DNA from: Glutamicibacter protophormiae
GTDB taxonomy: Bacteria; Actinomycetota; Actinomycetes; Actinomycetales; Micrococcaceae
Direction: 5' to 3'
Assembly (NCBI RefSeq): GCF_014647495.1
Contig: NZ_BMPH01000001.1
Span: 310,001 to 374,000 of the forward strand
DNA length: 64,000 nucleotides
The notes beneath the pieces are model-generated. The model saw nothing but the letters and a program-made list of their open reading frames with translations. It was not told where the DNA came from and ran no database searches. A program made the translations under genes and the position numbers. Shown here piece after piece: positions 9,099 through 17,351 of this stretch (position 1 is its first letter; each line of letters begins with the position of its first letter).

Positions 9099-9315
9099 TG
9101 CCACCAGTTTATCGCGACGCGCGTGAAGGCATCCGGAGGGGCGGCCGCCGCAATAGTCCGCACTGCACGATTTAACCCGATGTTTGCACCTCGCTACGGT
9201 CTTTCAGGTTGATTTATCCATGGTCCGGGCATTGACTCCGGTGCCGGGGGAGTGGGAAAATTCTCCTCATGGGGCATCTACTGGGGCTGGTTGTGCTTTG
9301 CTGGGAGAGTTGCCG

Positions 9316-10014
9316 ATGGCTGCATCATATGAAATTGAACTGCTTGACCGCTGGCGTCTGATCGCCGACGGCCAACCGGTCAAATTGCGTTTGCGCGAGC
9401 AGCGGGTGCTGACCCTGTTGGCGGTCCAGGGGCCGGTCTCGCGGCGCCGGATGGCCGGGATGCTCTGGCCGGAGACCACCGAGATGCGCGCGGCCGACAG
9501 CCTGCGCGTGAGCCTGTGCCACATCCACCACCAGTGCCCCGGGGTGATCCGCTGCGACGACGGCTGGGTGGAAATCGCCCCTGCGGTGTCCGTGGATCTG
9601 CACACCCTGCGCCATCGGCTGCAGCGCTCGCTGCTGGCCGCCGACGCCGAAAGCCTGCAGGAGGACAGCTTCCTGAACACCCGCGCGCTGCTGCCGGACT
9701 GGGACGAGCCCTGGCTGTTCGAGGAGCAGGAGGCGCTGCGCCAGCTGCAGCTGCGCGCGTTGGAGGCCGCATCGGCGCAGCTGCTGAATTCGGGGCTGCA
9801 GCATCGGGCTTGGCAGCTGGCCCAGAGCGCGTTGCGGATCGACCCGATGCGCGAATCGGCCGCGAGCCTCAGTGCCCGCGCCGAATCAGGGCAGGGCAAC
9901 AACGCCTCGGCCACCGCGGGGCTGCTGCAGTTCATCGGGCGGCTAAAGACCGAGCTCGGGGTGGAGCCGAGTCCCGAGCTGCTGCACACGCTCACCCAGC
10001 TGCGCGGAGCCTAG
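9316..10014 (+). CDS. SARP-type transcriptional regulator (winged helix plus BTAD)
   Basis: The 232-residue protein has an OmpR-like winged-helix N-terminus (about residues 5-95; LRLREQRVLTLLAV, MAGMLWPETTEMRAADSLRV) and a BTAD tetratricopeptide-like domain after it (about 95-230; LLPDWDEPWLFEEQE and ELGVEPSPELLHTLTQLRG). This is the minimal layout of Streptomyces antibiotic regulatory proteins, which activate transcription by binding 11-bp-spaced direct repeats just upstream of -10 boxes. Exactly such repeats occur at four promoters in this window (13.5, 21.9, 26.1 and 27.3 kb), so I propose it as their activator; this is inference. GGGAGAG at 9303-9309 sets the start at 9316. No such repeat lies upstream of the gene itself. 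Confidence 0.8.
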   Translation: MAASYEIELLDRWRLIADGQPVKLRLREQRVLTLLAVQGPVSRRRMAGMLWPETTEMRAADSLRVSLCHIHHQCPGVIRCDDGWVEIAPAVSVDLHTLRHRLQRSLLAADAESLQEDSFLNTRALLPDWDEPWLFEEQEALRQLQLRALEAASAQLLNSGLQHRAWQLAQSALRIDPMRESAASLSARAESGQGNNASATAGLLQFIGRLKTELGVEPSPELLHTLTQLRGA

Positions 10015-10113
10015 CTGTACCGCACCCAGCCACCCGGCCCGGGTGCGGCTGCGCGGCATGTTGCGGTGCGCCGGAAACCTGCTCCGGCCCGGGGCCATAC
10101 TAGGCTGTTACCC

Positions 10114-10704
10114 ATGATGCATGTGGGCCTGACCGGTGGGGTGGCATCCGGTAAATCAGTAGTGGCGGCGAAATTGGCGCAGCTCGGGGCGGTGCTGATC
10201 GACGCCGACGCGCTGGCGCGGGTGGTCGTCGAACCGGGCACCCCCGGGCTGGCGGCGATCCGCGAAACCTTCGGCGAACGGATGCTGCAGGAGGACGGGA
10301 CGCTGGACCGCGCCGCGCTGGGCGCCCTGGTGTTCTCCGACGAGGCAGCCCGCGAAAAGCTCAACGCGATCGTGCACCCGCTGATCCGCGAGGAATCCGC
10401 GCGCCTGCGCCAAGCCGCGCCCTCCGGTGCGCTGGTGGTCGAGGACGTGCCGCTGCTGGCCGAATCCGGGCAGGCCCCGGCCTACGACGTGGTCATCGTC
10501 GTGCAGGCGCCCCGCGAGGAGCGCATCCGCCGGATGGTGGAGGACCGCGGCTGGACCCGGCAGGACGCCGAGGCGCGCATGGCCGCGCAGGCCACCGACG
10601 AGCAGCGCGCAGAAATCGCCGACTACCTGCTCGTCAACGACGGCAGCCGCGAGCAGCTGCTGGCCCGGGTCGAAGAGCTCTACCGCCAGGAGCTGGGCCG
10701 CTGA
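10114..10704 (+). CDS. coaE: Dephospho-CoA kinase
   Basis: This 196-residue enzyme carries out the last step of coenzyme A synthesis, phosphorylating the 3'-hydroxyl of dephospho-CoA. The P-loop is GLTGGVASGKS near the N-terminus, DADALAR forms the acceptor region, and the lid segment ERIRRMVEDRGW is typical. It lacks the C-terminal UPF0157 extension found on some actinobacterial CoaE proteins. TAGGCT (10101-10106) lies 7 bases before the ATG at 10114, suggesting a leaderless message; a second ATG follows immediately. Its stop overlaps the start of the next gene by one base. Confidence 0.95.
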   Translation: MMHVGLTGGVASGKSVVAAKLAQLGAVLIDADALARVVVEPGTPGLAAIRETFGERMLQEDGTLDRAALGALVFSDEAAREKLNAIVHPLIREESARLRQAAPSGALVVEDVPLLAESGQAPAYDVVIVVQAPREERIRRMVEDRGWTRQDAEARMAAQATDEQRAEIADYLLVNDGSREQLLARVEELYRQELGR

Positions 10705-10955
10705 TGCTGAAAACCGCCAAGTGGACGATGCTTGCCTGCTTTGCCGCCGCGCTGGTGCTGTGGCTGGGCTTCGGCGGGCGCAGCGAATTCGTCGCCTCCG
10801 ACGGGCCCTACCCGCCGGTGGTGCACATCAGCGGCTGGCTGGCCCTGGCAGGGCTGGCGGCCGCGACCTGGCTGACCGTCGGCGTGTTCGGCGGGATGAT
10901 CCGCCGCACCGTGGCGCGCAACTCGATCCGCTTTGGCATGAAGCGCGGGCGCTAG
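10704..10955 (+). CDS. Small two-helix membrane protein
   Basis: This 83-residue protein has two hydrophobic helices (about residues 8-25 and 42-65) and a basic C-terminus. It overlaps the coaE stop by one base (TGATG), so it is translationally coupled to coaE. I do not recognise the family and cannot assign a function. Confidence 0.7.
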   Translation: MLKTAKWTMLACFAAALVLWLGFGGRSEFVASDGPYPPVVHISGWLALAGLAAATWLTVGVFGGMIRRTVARNSIRFGMKRGR

Positions 10956-10973
10956 CGGAACCGGGCGCAGCAC

Positions 10974-11004
10974 TGCGCGGCCGACCGCTGGGATCGGCCG
11001 CGCA
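10974..11004. terminator. Hairpin between convergent genes, probable bidirectional terminator
   Basis: A perfect 11-bp stem (TGCGCGGCCGA at 10974-10984 with 10994-11004) and a 9-base loop lie between the converging coaE operon and the M6 protease operon. There is no clear T-run on either side. Confidence 0.5.
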
Positions 11005-11040
11005 CCACGCGAGGCTGCGCCTCGGCAGGGCGGCGCCGGG

Positions 11041-11283
11041 TCAGGAGCCGCCTGGATCGGGCAATTCATCCAGCGCTATGGGTTCGGGCGCCGCGTCCGG
11101 TCCTCCGGCGGCCATCTGGCCCATGGCCATCGGCTCGGGAGCCGCCCCCGTTGTTCCCGCTCCGGCAGCGCCTGCCAGCTGCTCCAGCGCCATCGGCGAC
11201 GGAGCCGAGGAGTCCGCGGCGTCCTGGGACCCCGCTTCGCCGGTACCCGCAACGCTGATCTTGATCTTGTAGTCCTTGCTCAT
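11041..11283 (-). CDS. 80-residue Ala/Pro/Met-rich repeat peptide
   Basis: I do not recognise this protein. It begins with a lysine-containing, strand-like segment (MSKDYKIKISVAG) and continues into a low-complexity Ala/Gly/Pro region with three imperfect repeats: SPMALEQLAG, PEPMAMGQMAAG and PEPIALDELPD. It has no signal peptide and no cysteine. It is the third gene of the operon headed by the M6 metalloprotease, starting 32 bases after the previous stop. The leader-like start followed by repeated short modules could suit a processed or modified peptide, but no modifying enzyme is adjacent, so this remains open. Confidence 0.6.
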   Translation of the reverse strand: MSKDYKIKISVAGTGEAGSQDAADSSAPSPMALEQLAGAAGAGTTGAAPEPMAMGQMAAGGPDAAPEPIALDELPDPGGS

Positions 11284-11315
11284 GTGCGACTGCACCCCTT
11301 TCTCTGTCCGTCGGG

Positions 11316-11528
11316 CTAGAGGTAGACCTGCGTGATGTTCTTCGCCGCGTCCAGGACGACATAGACCTGCTTGCCGGTGGCCTTGGCCACGGAGAGCAGC
11401 AGATGGACGTTGGTCACGCCGTCGGCTGCTCCGGTCAGCACCTTGTGCCAGGCGTTGTCCGAGGCCAAATGGGCCCAGGCGTTCTGCGAATGGTTGGAGG
11501 TGAAGATCTGGTTGATGGTGGTCCACAT
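11316..11528 (-). CDS. Free-standing copy of the M6 protease C-terminal domain
   Basis: This 70-residue protein aligns along its whole length with the last 70 residues of the M6 metalloprotease encoded just upstream. Shared features are NQ-F, QNAWAH, W-K-TGA-DG-TN and a final QVYL (QCYL in the protease). The family is unknown to me. AAGGAAG sits 5 bases before the ATG. Its position, 35 bases after the protease stop, suggests that the two proteins interact, for example by domain exchange, by acting as a decoy or immunity partner, or by sharing an assembly partner. That is inference. Confidence 0.7.
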   Translation of the reverse strand: MWTTINQIFTSNHSQNAWAHLASDNAWHKVLTGAADGVTNVHLLLSVAKATGKQVYVVLDAAKNITQVYL

Positions 11529-11563
11529 GGTTCTTCCTTCTTTCGTGTCGCTCGTGGACGGAT

Positions 11564-13285
11564 TCACAGGTAGCACTGCGAGATGGTCGAGGCGTCGGCG
11601 ACGACGGTGACCAGCAGGCCCTTGGCCCGGGCCAGCGCGAGCAGGGCCAGCATGTTGGTAATGCCGTCCGGGGCGCCGGTGGTGATCTTGCGCCAGCCCA
11701 GGGTTCCCACATGCGCCCACGCGTTCTGCGCATTGACGGTGGCGAAGACCTGGTTGACCGCGATGTTGTAGTGGGTGGCCGGGCCGGTGTTCCTGGTGGC
11801 CACCGTCATCGAATGGGCGACGGCGGAGACGGACTCGATGTCCAGTCCCGAGCCGCTGCCGTCCCACCAGTTGCTGTTCGGCGCCGAGGAAGGGCCGAAG
11901 CTGGAGCCCGAACCCCCGTAGAGGTCGGTGGCATCGCCGTAGTTCACCCGCCGTTCCAGGTCGAAGCGGTTGTCCGCCTGCTCCAGGGACAGCTCGTAGT
12001 GCTTGGCCGGGGTCATCTCCTGGTTGCTGTTGTTGCCGGTGGTGTCCACGTGCCAGATCGCGACGCCGGAATCAGGCAGCGAGGCGTCCCGTCCGGCCTG
12101 CTCGCGGTTTTCCACGATGAAGTATTCCGTGGCGCTGCGCGGATGCAGCAGGAACTCGTTGCGTCCGGCCGCGATGGTGTAGCTCTGCCCGGATGCCATG
12201 GTGGTGGCCGCCGAGGACCAGCCCGCCGCATGCTTCAGGTAGGCGTCGACCTGGGTCGGATTCTTGTCGTTGCCGCCGTAGCACATCAGCGAATAGTGCC
12301 CGACGCCCAGGCCGACCCCGACGCTGTCGTAGTCGTACAGGTCCGGGAAGTCGCACACCATGTGACCGTTCTCGTGGCAGAACGTGCGCAGCGTGAGCTG
12401 GTTGCCCAAATCCGTGATCTGGTAGTCGGAGAAGCGGCGCGTCGCGCTGAGCACGTACGGGGTGGCCAGCGCCCAGCTGTGCGGCCACAGCCCTTCGCTC
12501 CACGCGTTCGAGCGGACCCCGGCGTAGAAGACGCTCAGCGCCTTGATGTAGCCGCCGGCATCTGCGGTCAGCGACGAGAAGTCGAAGCCCGACGCCACCA
12601 GGGAGTTCAGCGCCTCGCGGATCAGTTCCTGGGCCCGGGTGCCGTAGCTGATGGCCGGATCCGTGTAGTAGGTGCGCGGATGGGCCGCCCGGTAGTAGGC
12701 GGCCACGAGGTTCTTGTAGCTCAACTTGCCGTCCGAGACGTCGCGGAAGTAGTCGAACGCCGATCCGTTGTTGCCGAAGCCGGTGTAGCCCGCCTTGTTG
12801 CAGAAGTCGTCGACCTCCTGCCGGCTGATCGTGGCCGGGAAGTCGCTGAAATCAATGAGCAGCACCAGCCCCCGGAAATTTCCGGTGGTCGGATTCGACG
12901 GCGGCGCGGCCTCCGGGGATGCCGACTGGGCCTTGGCCTGGGCCTGGGCTTCCATGCGGCGTTGCATCCAGCGCGGCACCGGCCCCAGGGATTCGCGCAC
13001 ATCGCGGGCCTGCATGGCGCTGGATTCGCGGGTGACCCGCAGGTGCTGCGGCAGGGCCAGGGTTTGCGGATCGGCGGTGTCGACGCGCTCGCCGGTGGGC
13101 TGCAGCGATTCTCCGTTCTCGGCGAGCTGCGCGTATTCGTAGTAGCCGTCCTCGCCCTTGACGACGGTGTAGCCGTCCAGGGTTTCGAAGACCGCATGGA
13201 ACTGGTTTCCCCAGCCCTTGAGTGTCAACTCGGAGCCGTCGGGGTTCTGAAAGGTGAATAATTCGCCTTGGAATGGGACTGGCAT
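11564..13285 (-). CDS. M6 family metalloprotease without signal peptide
   Basis: The 573-residue protein belongs to the immune-inhibitor-A (M6) peptidases. The zinc site is CHENGHMVCDFPDLYDYD (HExxH plus the family's PDLYD), preceded by an N-terminal domain (about residues 1-100; LTLKGWGNQFHAVFETLDGYTV) usual in this family. M6 enzymes are normally exported, yet the start is a hydrophilic MPVPFQGELFTF and there is no Sec or Tat signal. GGGAGGAAGG in front of the ATG at 13285 fixes the start. The last 70 residues form a separate domain that recurs as the next gene. The operon has a triple 11-bp repeat upstream (13525-13553), the probable SARP operator. Location and targets are unknown. Confidence 0.85.
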   Translation of the reverse strand: MPVPFQGELFTFQNPDGSELTLKGWGNQFHAVFETLDGYTVVKGEDGYYEYAQLAENGESLQPTGERVDTADPQTLALPQHLRVTRESSAMQARDVRESLGPVPRWMQRRMEAQAQAKAQSASPEAAPPSNPTTGNFRGLVLLIDFSDFPATISRQEVDDFCNKAGYTGFGNNGSAFDYFRDVSDGKLSYKNLVAAYYRAAHPRTYYTDPAISYGTRAQELIREALNSLVASGFDFSSLTADAGGYIKALSVFYAGVRSNAWSEGLWPHSWALATPYVLSATRRFSDYQITDLGNQLTLRTFCHENGHMVCDFPDLYDYDSVGVGLGVGHYSLMCYGGNDKNPTQVDAYLKHAAGWSSAATTMASGQSYTIAAGRNEFLLHPRSATEYFIVENREQAGRDASLPDSGVAIWHVDTTGNNSNQEMTPAKHYELSLEQADNRFDLERRVNYGDATDLYGGSGSSFGPSSAPNSNWWDGSGSGLDIESVSAVAHSMTVATRNTGPATHYNIAVNQVFATVNAQNAWAHVGTLGWRKITTGAPDGITNMLALLALARAKGLLVTVVADASTISQCYL

Positions 13286-13884
13286 TCGGGTGCCTTCCTC
13301 CCTTGGGTGGCGTGATGTGGGATTGATTCCGCGTCGTCCGCCGCGTAGCGGCGGCAGGCGGGATTCGCCAAGGCACATCGGGAGGCAGCATCGAAAAGCC
13401 AGCGCCCGGTATGCGCAACGTTGTCCGGGGGAGCGGCCGGCAAGAACTGCGCCGGTTCGCCCCGTGGCGCGCCGCCGCCGGAAATTCCGGCGGCGGACGT
13501 GCTGTCACTACTATGCCGTTGGGTGATTACCGCTGTGTTACCGCGGCATTACCGCGACGGCAGTCCGCTGGCTACGGCGATCGTTTCAAGCTTGAAAAAG
13601 GCGGCGAGCCGCAACGGGACGCCCAGCGCGGACCATTCGATCAGGGAGCCGGCGCGCTGGGGGAGCTGCGGTTTCAGGAAAGCGAGGTGGAGAGCCCCGG
13701 CGGTAACGGCCAAGACTCCTTTCACGCAAATACGAGGAAACTTGACGCTGCCAAGCAACACCTACCCGCCCAGGGCGGCGCCCGGGAAACCGGCAGTCCC
13801 CGGGACGGCCCGGCGCGTTGTTCGGCCCGGCAACCGATGGGAGAATTCCTAGGGGACGCTGGTAGTCAAGAGAAAAGACATGCC
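13286..13884. other. Intergenic region with SARP-type operator, no convincing gene
   Basis: Apart from the operator at 13525-13553 and the promoter-like sequence next to it, I see nothing that looks coding. Short open frames on both strands have no recognisable content. The downstream part (13560-13880) resembles decayed coding sequence. Confidence 0.5.
13509..13553 (-). promoter_or_regulatory. Triple 11-bp direct repeat (SARP-type operator, site A) of the M6 operon
   Basis: Read on the minus strand, GGTAATG, GGTAACA and GGTAATC occur at exact 11-bp steps (13553-13547, 13542-13536 and 13531-13525). They are followed after 10 bases by ATAGTA, or after 11 by TAGTAG, as a -10 box. The repeats point toward the M6 protease gene, whose start is about 240 bases downstream. 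The layout is that of known SARP binding sites. Confidence 0.7.
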
Positions 13885-14679
13885 ATGATGAAACTGAATT
13901 TGCTGGGTGGACAAAAGCTCACGACGCGGGGCGTCGACCGTGTTTCCGGCGGGCCCATAGTCGCGCAGCCGTTGGACCTCCGGCTCCTGCGCCCCGGTAG
14001 CCGCGTGCCGCGACCAGTAGCGGCCGGGAGTTTTTGGCCTGAAACGGTCGAGGACCCAGCGCTGAACAGTTTCCGCACCGAACACGCCGCATTGTGCGAG
14101 GACGTTGTCGCCGCCTGGCGGACGCTGGCCGAACCACTTGCCACAACCAACCTGGCGGGAATTTCCGGGCCGAGCACCAAGCGCGCCTCGCCTGGCTCGA
14201 TCGTTGAACGTGATGCCCGGGCCAAACAACACAGCAAACGAAAGTCGTCAATGAACGTCTCTCAGGCCGCCGAATCAATCATGCCCAACACCCCGAAGTC
14301 CGGCGCCGGTGAACACCTCGTCTCGATCCAACGGGGTCCCGATTGCGCCGCTGTGCCGCAGCGACAAGGGGGAAGTACCCGGCAGCGCTACCCCTGGCCG
14401 TGTTTGATCCCCGTTGAGGTGATTGACGAGGTGCAGGGGACCCGGCGCGCCGGGATCCAGGTGCTCGAATCATCCTTGGCCGCCGAGGCAACCAAGGCGA
14501 TCACCGACAACAAGCCATTGGCCAAGTTCACCGTCGGCACAGTCGGCCGCATCATTGAATTCGATGGACTCACCGATGGAATTCTTGGTGGTGCCACCGA
14601 GCCTGTACCCGTGGAGCGCGCAGACCACGCGGCGGATGCGGCACGGGCTGGAGCATGCCGCGTTGGTGACCGGGCATGA
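13885..14679 (+). pseudogene. Probable decayed SARP-like regulator fused to unknown sequence
   Basis: This frame is open for 264 codons. The first 75 residues align without gaps to the SARP regulator at 9.3 kb: both have WPET at residues 51-54, in AAGSFWPETVEDPALNSFRT here and MAGMLWPETTEMRAADSLRV there. After that the similarity stops abruptly and the composition looks unlike a folded protein until about residue 170, where a more normal segment begins (LIPVEVIDEVQGTRRAG, then KFTVGTVGRIIEFDG). I infer a remnant made by frameshift or recombination. However, its stop overlaps the next start as ATGA, which would suit a translated gene; an internal ATG at 14251 could begin a shorter real protein. 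Confidence 0.4.
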
Positions 14680-15254
14680 GCACGCACGACGCTGCGCATG
14701 AACCTGGGTGTGAAGCTGAGTCCTTTCTGCTGCTCCCGCATACGGTGACCAACCTCGCGGAATTCACGGCATCCCCCCGCAGGTACCTGGTCTCCGTCGA
14801 GGAGGAACCCGACCGGGCAACGCAGCTCTGGTTCAAGCGGGCGGCGCAAAACCCCTACGGCGGCGACGGGATTGTGCAAATACGTTATTTCGGCGAACAA
14901 CTGATTCCGCCCGGATTGTGGGACGACACGCTGGCGATCTGGTTTGCGCTGCTTGACGCGATTGAAGGATTCCTGTCGGCGGGCGCCGGTCACGGCTCAT
15001 TCAGCGCTGAGATCATTCTCTCGGGGAACCGGCATGCCGCGGGTTTTTCGATTGGCGGGGTATCGAATCGCATCGAGCCGTTGGCGTTCATCCCCGCCGT
15101 GCTTGGTGGGGCAAAGCGCTACTTCGACTGGCTTGAAAACAGGGTCGGCCGCACCCATCCCGGGATCCCCGAGCGTATCGAGGTGATGACCCGATTGCTG
15201 GATTCTTTCAGCCAACCGCGAGCAGTTCCCCAAGAGTCGGGACCTAGGGCGTAG
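14676..15254 (+). CDS. Uncharacterised 192-residue protein
   Basis: I do not recognise this protein. It is soluble, mildly acidic, has no signal peptide and contains Trp-rich stretches (PPGLWDDTLAIWFALLDAIEG, in two parts of one helix-like region) and a beta-like segment (GSFSAEIILSGNRHAAGFSIGG). Its ATG overlaps the preceding stop (ATGA). uvrB starts 10 bases after its stop but has its own -10 box inside this gap. Codon use is normal for the window, so it appears to be intact even though the sequence before it looks decayed. Confidence 0.65.
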   Translation: MSTHDAAHEPGCEAESFLLLPHTVTNLAEFTASPRRYLVSVEEEPDRATQLWFKRAAQNPYGGDGIVQIRYFGEQLIPPGLWDDTLAIWFALLDAIEGFLSAGAGHGSFSAEIILSGNRHAAGFSIGGVSNRIEPLAFIPAVLGGAKRYFDWLENRVGRTHPGIPERIEVMTRLLDSFSQPRAVPQESGPRA

Positions 15255-15263
15255 CCTAGATGC

Positions 15264-17351
15264 ATGAGTCTTGCACAGCCCATCAAACGAGTTGTCGCCC
15301 CCTTCGAGGTCATCAGCGAATACGAGCCGGCCGGCGACCAGCCGCAGGCCATCGCGGAGCTGACGCAGCGGATCCAGGCCGGTGAGAAGGACATCGTGCT
15401 GCTCGGCGCGACCGGCACCGGCAAGTCCGCGACGACCGCCTGGCTGGTCGAGCAGGTGCAGCGCCCCACACTGGTGCTGGTGCAGAACAAGACCCTGGCC
15501 GCCCAGCTGGCCAACGAGTTCCGCGAGCTGATGCCGAACAACGCGGTCGAGTACTTCGTGTCCTACTACGACTACTACCAGCCCGAGGCCTACGTGCCGC
15601 AGACCGATACCTTCATCGAGAAGGACTCCTCGATCAACGAGGAGGTCGAGCGGCTGCGCCACTCGGCCACCAACTCGCTGCTCACCCGCCGCGACACGAT
15701 CGTGGTCGCCACGGTGTCCTGCATCTACGGCCTGGGCACCCCGGAGGAATATGTCGCCGGGATGGTGACCGTGCGCCAGGGCGAGGAACTGAACCGCGAC
15801 GCGATGCTGCGCCAGTTCGTCGCCATGCAGTACACCCGCAACGACATGGACTTCCACCGCGGCACCTTCCGGGTGCGCGGAGACACCGTGGAGATCATCC
15901 CGATGTATGAGGAGCAGGCGGTGCGCATCGAGTTCTTCGGCGACGAGGTGGAGGCGATCTACACGCTGCACCCGGTCACCGGCGAGGTGATCCGCGAGGA
16001 AACCGAGATGTACATCTTCCCGGCCAGCCACTATGTGGCCGGCGCCGAGCGGATGCACAAGGCGATCAAGACCATCGAGGACGAGCTGGCGGCGCGGCTG
16101 AAGGAGCTGGAGAGCCAGAACAAGCTCGTCGAGGCCCAGCGGCTGCGCATGCGCACGACCTACGACCTGGAAATGATGGAGCAGATGGGCTTCTGCAACG
16201 GCATCGAGAACTACTCGCGGCACATCGACGGCCGCGAGGCCGGCTCCGCCCCGCACTGCCTGCTGGACTACTTCCCGGACGACTTCCTGCTGGTCATCGA
16301 CGAGTCCCACGTCACCGTGCCGCAGATCGGTGCCATGTACGAGGGCGACATGTCACGCAAGCGCACCTTGGTGGAGCACGGCTTCCGCCTGCCCAGCGCC
16401 ATGGACAACCGCCCGCTGAAGTGGGACGAGTTCCTGGAGCGCATCGGCCAGACGGTGTACCTGTCCGCGACCCCGGGCAAGTACGAGCTGGGCAAGTCCG
16501 ACGGCTTCGTGGAGCAGATCATCCGCCCGACCGGCCTGATCGACCCGGAGATCATCATCAAGCCCACCAAGGGGCAGATCGACGACCTGCTGGACGAGAT
16601 CCGCACCCGCGTGGACCGCGACGAACGCGTGCTGGTCACCACCCTGACCAAGCGCATGGCCGAAGACCTCACCGACTACCTCACCGAGCACCAGGTGCGG
16701 GTGCAGTACCTGCACTCTGACGTGGACACCATCCGCCGCGTCGAGCTGCTGCGCGAATTGCGCATGGGATCCTTCGACGTGCTGGTGGGCATCAACCTGC
16801 TGCGCGAGGGCCTGGACCTGCCCGAGGTGTCGCTGGTGACGATCCTGGATGCCGACAAGCAGGGCTTCCTGCGTTCGGCGACCTCGCTGATCCAGACCAT
16901 CGGCCGCGCAGCCCGCAACGTGTCGGGCCAGGTCATCATGTACGCGGACAAGATCACCGACGCGATGGGCCAGGCGATCGAGGAGACCAACCGCCGCCGA
17001 GAGATCCAGCGGGCGCACAACGAGAAGCACGGCATCGACCCGACGCCGCTGCGCAAGAAGATCGCCGACATCACCGACCAGCTGGCCCGCGAGGATGCGG
17101 ACACCCAGGAGCTGCTGAACAACAACCGCCTGGCCAAGGGCGGCAAGCGCACCTCCGCATCGTCGACCGTGCGCAAGGACGGGCTGGCCGCTGCGCCGGC
17201 CGAGGACCTGCTGGGCCAGATCGAGGAGATGACCGGGCAGATGCATGCCGCCGCCGCGGAGCTGCAGTTCGAGCTGGCCGCGAGGCTGCGCGATGAAGTG
17301 TCCGAGCTGAAGAAGGAATTGCGCCAGATGAAGGCCGCCGGGCACGCCTGA
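15264..17351 (+). CDS. uvrB: Excinuclease ABC subunit B
   Basis: UvrB (695 residues, full length) is the damage-verifying helicase of nucleotide excision repair. It has the Walker A GATGTGKS, the beta-hairpin region [12 protein letters not shown], the DEAD-like motif IDESH, helicase motifs V and VI ([22 protein letters not shown]) and the C-terminal UVR motif that binds UvrC (LEFQLAAR-type segment near residue 665). TAGCCT (15252-15257) ends 6 bases before the ATG, implying a leaderless message. No clear LexA box was found here, in contrast to uvrA. Confidence 0.97.

Follow-up and report, generated by a model that had tools for sequence, protein, structure and literature searches.

An M6 Protease Operon with a Fused and a Free Module

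The window analyzed here, 64,000 nucleotides of Glutamicibacter protophormiae contig NZ_BMPH01000001.1 (positions 310,001 to 374,000), is part of contig 1 of a 3.83-Mb soil-type actinobacterial genome, and it contains a three-gene operon that encodes an M6-family metalloprotease and, as a separate protein, a second copy of the protease's own C-terminal module. All three genes lie on the minus strand. The gene for the 573-residue protease (11564-13285) comes first, followed after a gap of 35 bp by a gene for a 70-residue protein, the free module (11316-11528), and after a further 32 bp by one for an 80-residue low-complexity protein (11041-11283); Shine-Dalgarno-like sequences can be read before each of the three starts. 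A preliminary description of this DNA had set the protease and the separate small gene side by side in one operon, and both genes lie adjoining as described, but the third gene had been overlooked. In a congener, G003, the free module is 96% identical and the 80-residue protein 78% identical.

The protease has the two features that define peptidase family M6, a catalytic domain match (TIGR03296 over residues 142-412, E 6.9e-49, above the curated cut-off) and an HExxH motif. This zinc-binding/catalytic motif, read from the translation as HENGH at residues 304-308 (12362-12376, minus strand), is intact and aligns with HESGH of a Pseudoalteromonas M6 protein, so that the description of the protein as a catalytic enzyme holds. 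The Pfam model PF05547 scores below its cut-off on the same protein (18.4 vs 22 bits).

The fused copy of the module occupies about residues 508-573 of the protease (11567-11764, minus strand). When protease residues 510-573 are aligned with residues 5-70 of the free protein, 32 of 66 positions are identical (48%) and 71% are similar (E 4e-17). The homology claimed in the preliminary description, at roughly half of the positions and with the shared motifs QNAWAH, W-K-TGA-DG-TN and a C-terminal Q-YL, is thus borne out, although the similarity extends over about 66 residues and not the full 70. A whole-genome search returns these two copies alone (E 1e-42 and 3.7e-14). As had been supposed, the module falls into no described family: none of its matches in Pfam, NCBIfam, PADLOC or the PDB sequences is significant or passes a curated cut-off. 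Assignment to a known Pfam domain was considered and rejected, the single-member hits being mutually inconsistent and all at E > 0.01.

Recurrence of the Pair with Three Unrelated Proteases

We searched relatives, samples at the order, class and phylum level, the contigs of one genome per species in GTDB, and plasmids. The genome-contig scan used an alignment of modules from loci with papain-type (C1) proteases and is consequently biased toward such loci. Together these searches gave 11 distinct loci in which a module-tailed protease is followed by a free module in the next gene, ten of them actinobacterial and one on a Deinococcus plasmid. Two loci carry an M6 protease (the window and G003), one an astacin (M12A, in G816), and eight a papain-type protease: G057, G084, an uncultured member of the Propionibacteriaceae (L014), Kineococcus (L015), Paractinoplanes (L016), Kribbella (L017), Kineosporia (L018) and the Deinococcus aetherius plasmid (L013). 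The loci of two further genomes, G808 and G856, are repeats of those in Kineococcus and Kineosporia and are not additional to the 11. The astacin catalytic domain matches PF01400 (E 3.3e-53), and the papain-type domains match Peptidase_C1, PF00112 (E 2.9e-40 and 2.5e-49). The suggestion that the module recurs is therefore upheld across three unrelated protease folds, and the objection that the similarity might be confined to one pair of genes falls away. Since one module goes with interchangeable protease folds, we take it to act as a carrier rather than to belong to any single catalytic mechanism.

The module is nevertheless rare. The order sample yields it in 5 of 396 genomes and the class sample, at E 1e-3, in 5 of 395 (three of which carry the pair); among the 397 genomes of the phylum sample it is present only in the window's own. 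Two scans of viral contigs with two module queries found no relatives, and phage records searched with the C1-type free module gave no match, so that there is no sign of phage spread. Plasmids searched with the window's free module likewise gave no match, and when the M6 and M12A proteases themselves were searched directly against plasmids, the alignments stopped before the module. We did not count weak module matches in G309 and G076, which are unproven; that in G076 spans only 29 residues. Our literature searches, which did not cover most subscription journals, found no published description of the protease and module arrangement.

In a maximum-likelihood tree of 23 modules and 73 columns, the C1 copies are separated from a group made up of the M6 and M12A copies (99/98). 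Within the M6/M12A group the two G816 copies pair together (84/91), whereas the actinobacterial C1 fused copies form a clade (97/95) apart from the C1 free copies (81/92). This topology suggests that the fused and free pair arose more than once or was homogenized, 73 columns being too few to choose between the two. The tree also bears on the simplest explanation of the arrangement, namely a chance tandem duplication without function that has been kept by drift. Within the M6/M12A group, fused copies lie near free ones in the tree, which shows that local duplication or gene conversion did take place. Drift is nonetheless a very improbable account of the whole, since the pair has been kept at 11 loci, in two phyla and with three proteases, and since the C1 fused and free copies are separate conserved groups.

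Inhibitor Genes and Other Neighbors

Each of the C1 loci is adjoined by a gene for a chagasin-type inhibitor (I42, PF09394), and close to a contig end in G299 a free module has an I42 gene as its neighbor. At the astacin locus a YscW/YbaY-family gene (PF09619, E 1.7e-5; L042:9577-9924) lies between the astacin and SARP genes. The nearest plasmid relative of this astacin, from Pararhizobium, lacks the module and has a YbaY gene upstream. These positions suggest, but do not show, that YscW-like proteins are astacin inhibitors with a role that matches that of I42 in the C1 loci. Cytosolic proteases encoded together with an I42 or YscW/YbaY-family protein suggest that protection matters in these systems. 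The C1 loci resemble in this respect the pairing of a cysteine protease with chagasin, or of Bacillus subtilis Isp1 with IPI, in which an intracellular protease has its own inhibitor gene. Those systems differ in having neither an OB module nor a free module, and the window's M6 locus differs from them in having no recognized inhibitor.

Caspase-family genes were seen near two of the loci or their relatives. On the Deinococcus aetherius plasmid (L013:7094-12237), two of them are found after the genes for the C1 protease, the free module and the I42 inhibitor, all read in one direction. On a Pararhizobium gei plasmid (L065:1929-4503), a YbaY/YscW-family gene, the gene for the signal-less astacin relative mentioned above and a caspase-like gene stand in a row.

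Such neighborhoods raise the possibility of an intracellular conflict or cell-death device, in which the protease would be released or activated on a trigger and the module would act as a homotypic adaptor in the manner of the effector-associated domains (EADs) of VMAP/STAND-type conflict systems. The cytosolic proteases with co-encoded inhibitors, the caspase genes just described and the sparse, gain-and-loss distribution of the module all fit such a device, and so does the architecture: as with EADs, the same domain occurs in two adjacent genes, one of them on a protease, and the effectors are exchangeable. In EAD systems, however, the second copy is fused to a VMAP, NTPase or sensor component, whereas here it stands alone. 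The window operon has no MoxR, vWA or STAND partner, no other NTPase or sensor partner, and no caspase nearby; the module is predicted to have an OB fold; and the four proteins tested against PADLOC, which covers known antiphage defense systems, gave no match. We consider a conflict role unlikely, and note that it would be compatible with the oligomeric assembly proposed below.

Predicted Fold of the Module

An AlphaFold2 model built from 12 aligned modules (pLDDT 92.9, pTM 0.79) contains five strands and one helix in the β-β-β-α-β-β order of an oligonucleotide/oligosaccharide-binding (OB) fold, with strands at residues 5-10, 17-21 and 26-30, a helix at 37-51 and strands at 55-59 and 65-69. 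On the strength of this model we regard the predicted OB fold as a good assignment. The best Foldseek match in the PDB is CipA, the crystalline inclusion protein of Photorhabdus (7xhs; E 0.032, probability 1.00, TM-score 0.66 by query, 11% identity). The B subunit of LT-IIc also matches (7prp; probability 0.99, TM-score 0.77 by query), as does SubB less well (4bwg; probability 0.44). CipA forms a tetramer in which the helices pack round the fourfold axis and strand β1 pairs with β5 of the neighboring subunit; the LT-IIb B pentamer is assembled on a like plan (PMC9530169). The module shares with CipA the strand and helix order of its OB fold, and CipA is a small, intracellular, self-assembling protein. 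The two differ in that there is no sequence-level match and that CipA has a longer N-terminal arm. No natural fusion of CipA to an enzyme is known.

Chains of pro-protein-glutaminase (3a56, probability 0.99) are the second and fourth Foldseek hits and, should the matched stretch be the pro-region, they would favor a regulatory alternative: the fused copy could keep the protease inactive, or the free copy could inhibit it in trans, much as the protein-glutaminase pro-region does. The co-encoded I42 and YscW/YbaY-family proteins, which point to a need for protection, also speak for this reading, and the window has no other obvious inhibitor gene. Against it, one module family would need to fit three unrelated active sites, and a dedicated inhibitor is already encoded at the C1 loci in addition to the free module. 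Taking both sides together, we think an inhibitory role rather unlikely.

Missing Signal Peptides and Cellular Location

No hydrophobic N-terminal segment was found in any component scanned, protease or partner. The window's M6 protease and a Pseudoalteromonas M6 protein align from residue 3 of the former and residue 23 of the latter, at 36% identity across the propeptide and catalytic region. At its N terminus that relative has a hydrophobic segment that looks like a typical signal peptide, and its C-terminal region differs from the module that the window protease carries there. The simplest reading of the alignment is that the window protease has lost its signal peptide and had its C-terminal region replaced by the module. 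If so, its loss would place any assembly in the cytosol.

The lack of signal peptides bears directly on a further alternative suggested by the fold, an AB5-like or lectin-targeted toxin in which the B-like module would bind glycans of a target cell and bring the protease along. Protease A subunits that act with B pentamers are known from the metalloprotease toxin EcxAB and from SubAB, and a protease accompanied by a separate OB-fold subunit is what those toxins share with the loci described here, in keeping with the structural likeness to LT-IIc B and, weakly, to SubB. The differences are considerable: here a copy of the OB unit is part of the protease as well, signal peptides are missing from every component scanned, the C1 loci have inhibitor genes, and the module shows no similarity to known B subunits in Pfam or the PDB sequences. 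Delivery by a contractile injection system was rejected as well, a contractile-sheath gene being absent from the window's genome and, of the seven further module-carrying genomes tested, from all but G808 and G299. A secreted or injected toxin thus appears quite unlikely.

Probable SARP Regulation and Co-inheritance

The preliminary description had raised a possible link between the module and SARP boxes, and the sequence supports it. A SARP-box-like element with three exact TTACCGC heptamers at 11-bp spacing lies upstream of the protease gene (13527-13555, plus strand), against an expectation of 0.01 in shuffled sequence, and a degenerate copy is found in G003. A SARP-type regulator with a BTAD domain (PF03704, E 1.6e-9) is encoded at 9316-10014 on the plus strand and is the probable activator of the operon. 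SARP genes also accompany the other protease types, in G816 divergent from the astacin operon and in Kineococcus directly upstream of the C1 protease. LuxR-type regulators, read from open reading frames (ORFs), stand directly upstream of two papain-type loci (L017:700-3441 and L023:12029-15784), in the place that SARP genes take at others.

In the window (9100-15264), the SARP gene and the M6 operon are separate insertions that flank coaE and ORF83. The SARP gene lies in the gap between a YigZ-type gene and coaE, and the operon in that between ORF83 and uvrB. Among 18 genomes of the genus, only G000 and G003 hold both insertions; the other 16 hold neither and keep the YigZ-type gene, coaE, ORF83 and uvrB in an unbroken row, which represents the empty site. 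This joint presence and absence indicates that the two insertions are inherited together and so links the SARP gene to the operon. The 11-bp-spaced direct heptamer repeats near the promoter, found together with a SARP gene, are the pattern of a SARP-regulated operon, and SARP control through the TTACCGC box is accordingly what the sequence would predict.

Two other ORFs lie in this region. One, on the plus strand at 13885-14205 and divergent from the protease gene, weakly resembles the N-terminal portion of SARP proteins (LLGG..., FWPETVEDPALNSFR); we do not claim it as a decayed SARP gene, as it has no Pfam match and no tblastn match in G003. The other, of 192 residues at 14676-15254, lies between the protease operon and uvrB, and its DNA is 77% identical in G003.

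The Third Protein and Proline Motifs

The 80-residue protein contains three copies of AP.P[MI].[LM], at residues 27, 48 and 65, which are kept in G003. A 99-residue gene product in the same position in G816 has four copies of APPE[DG][VL] spaced by about 19-20 residues. The C1-type free modules instead are extended at the N terminus, and the extension carries PxxxPP motifs, for the most part near residues 11 and 50. Eight such proteins contain 14 of these motifs, where 0.7 are expected and none of 5000 shuffles reaches 14. From these repeated linear motifs, the 80-residue protein is probably a multivalent tether of the assembly.

A Proposed Cytosolic Assembly

In its comparisons the system resembles EADs in architecture and CipA or a B subunit in fold, and by the tests made it is a member of none of these groups. 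We regard the module as a new domain family, and the loci as a protease-scaffold arrangement that is itself new but uses a known fold. The preliminary description had offered assembly, targeting or protection as possible roles. We favor assembly among the three, because the predicted fold is that of oligomer-forming OB proteins and because the module remains constant while the protease fold changes, although each of the three functions is only inferred. We give about an even chance to the reading that the module is an oligomerization domain whose free copies co-assemble in the cytosol with module-tailed intracellular proteases.

Under this proposal, the 70-residue module would be a small OB-fold oligomerization domain like the B subunits of AB5 toxins and CipA. 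The protease tail would contribute one copy and the neighboring gene a surplus of free copies, giving mixed oligomers in which free subunits are joined by one or a few that bear the protease. The co-inherited SARP regulator would switch expression on, and the third small protein would tether the assembly; in the papain-type systems, that function may reside in the PxxxPP motifs fused to the free module itself.

Several points weigh against this proposal. The oligomer is read from a predicted fold, and some proteins with an OB fold are monomeric or bind nucleic acids. The module's helix varies in how amphipathic it is, and its character alone would not require it to be buried within an oligomer. 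The Foldseek E-values are weak (0.03 at best), as can be expected at 70 residues. A structure prediction for a full-length papain-type protease was unusable (pLDDT 29) and does not place the module relative to the active site. The tether role, for its part, is argued from motif spacing.

A more specific form of the proposal, which is possible but somewhat doubtful, is that a cytosolic OB-fold ring or inclusion docks interchangeable proteases by means of a built-in scaffold subunit, a motif-repeat tether and a SARP switch, so that the protease is stored safely and released on demand.

Implications

The operon arrangement suggests that protease complexes can be built in a way not described before. 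One scaffold domain found with three unrelated signal-less proteases points to an undescribed organization of dangerous proteolysis inside bacterial cells, and it adds a domain family that is missing from Pfam and NCBIfam. CipA-like or AB5-like folds become candidate natural enzyme scaffolds, and a ready-made docking module of this kind may be useful for protein engineering. M6 and astacin proteases are normally studied as secreted enzymes; with the loci described here, they gain a testable role in the cytosol.
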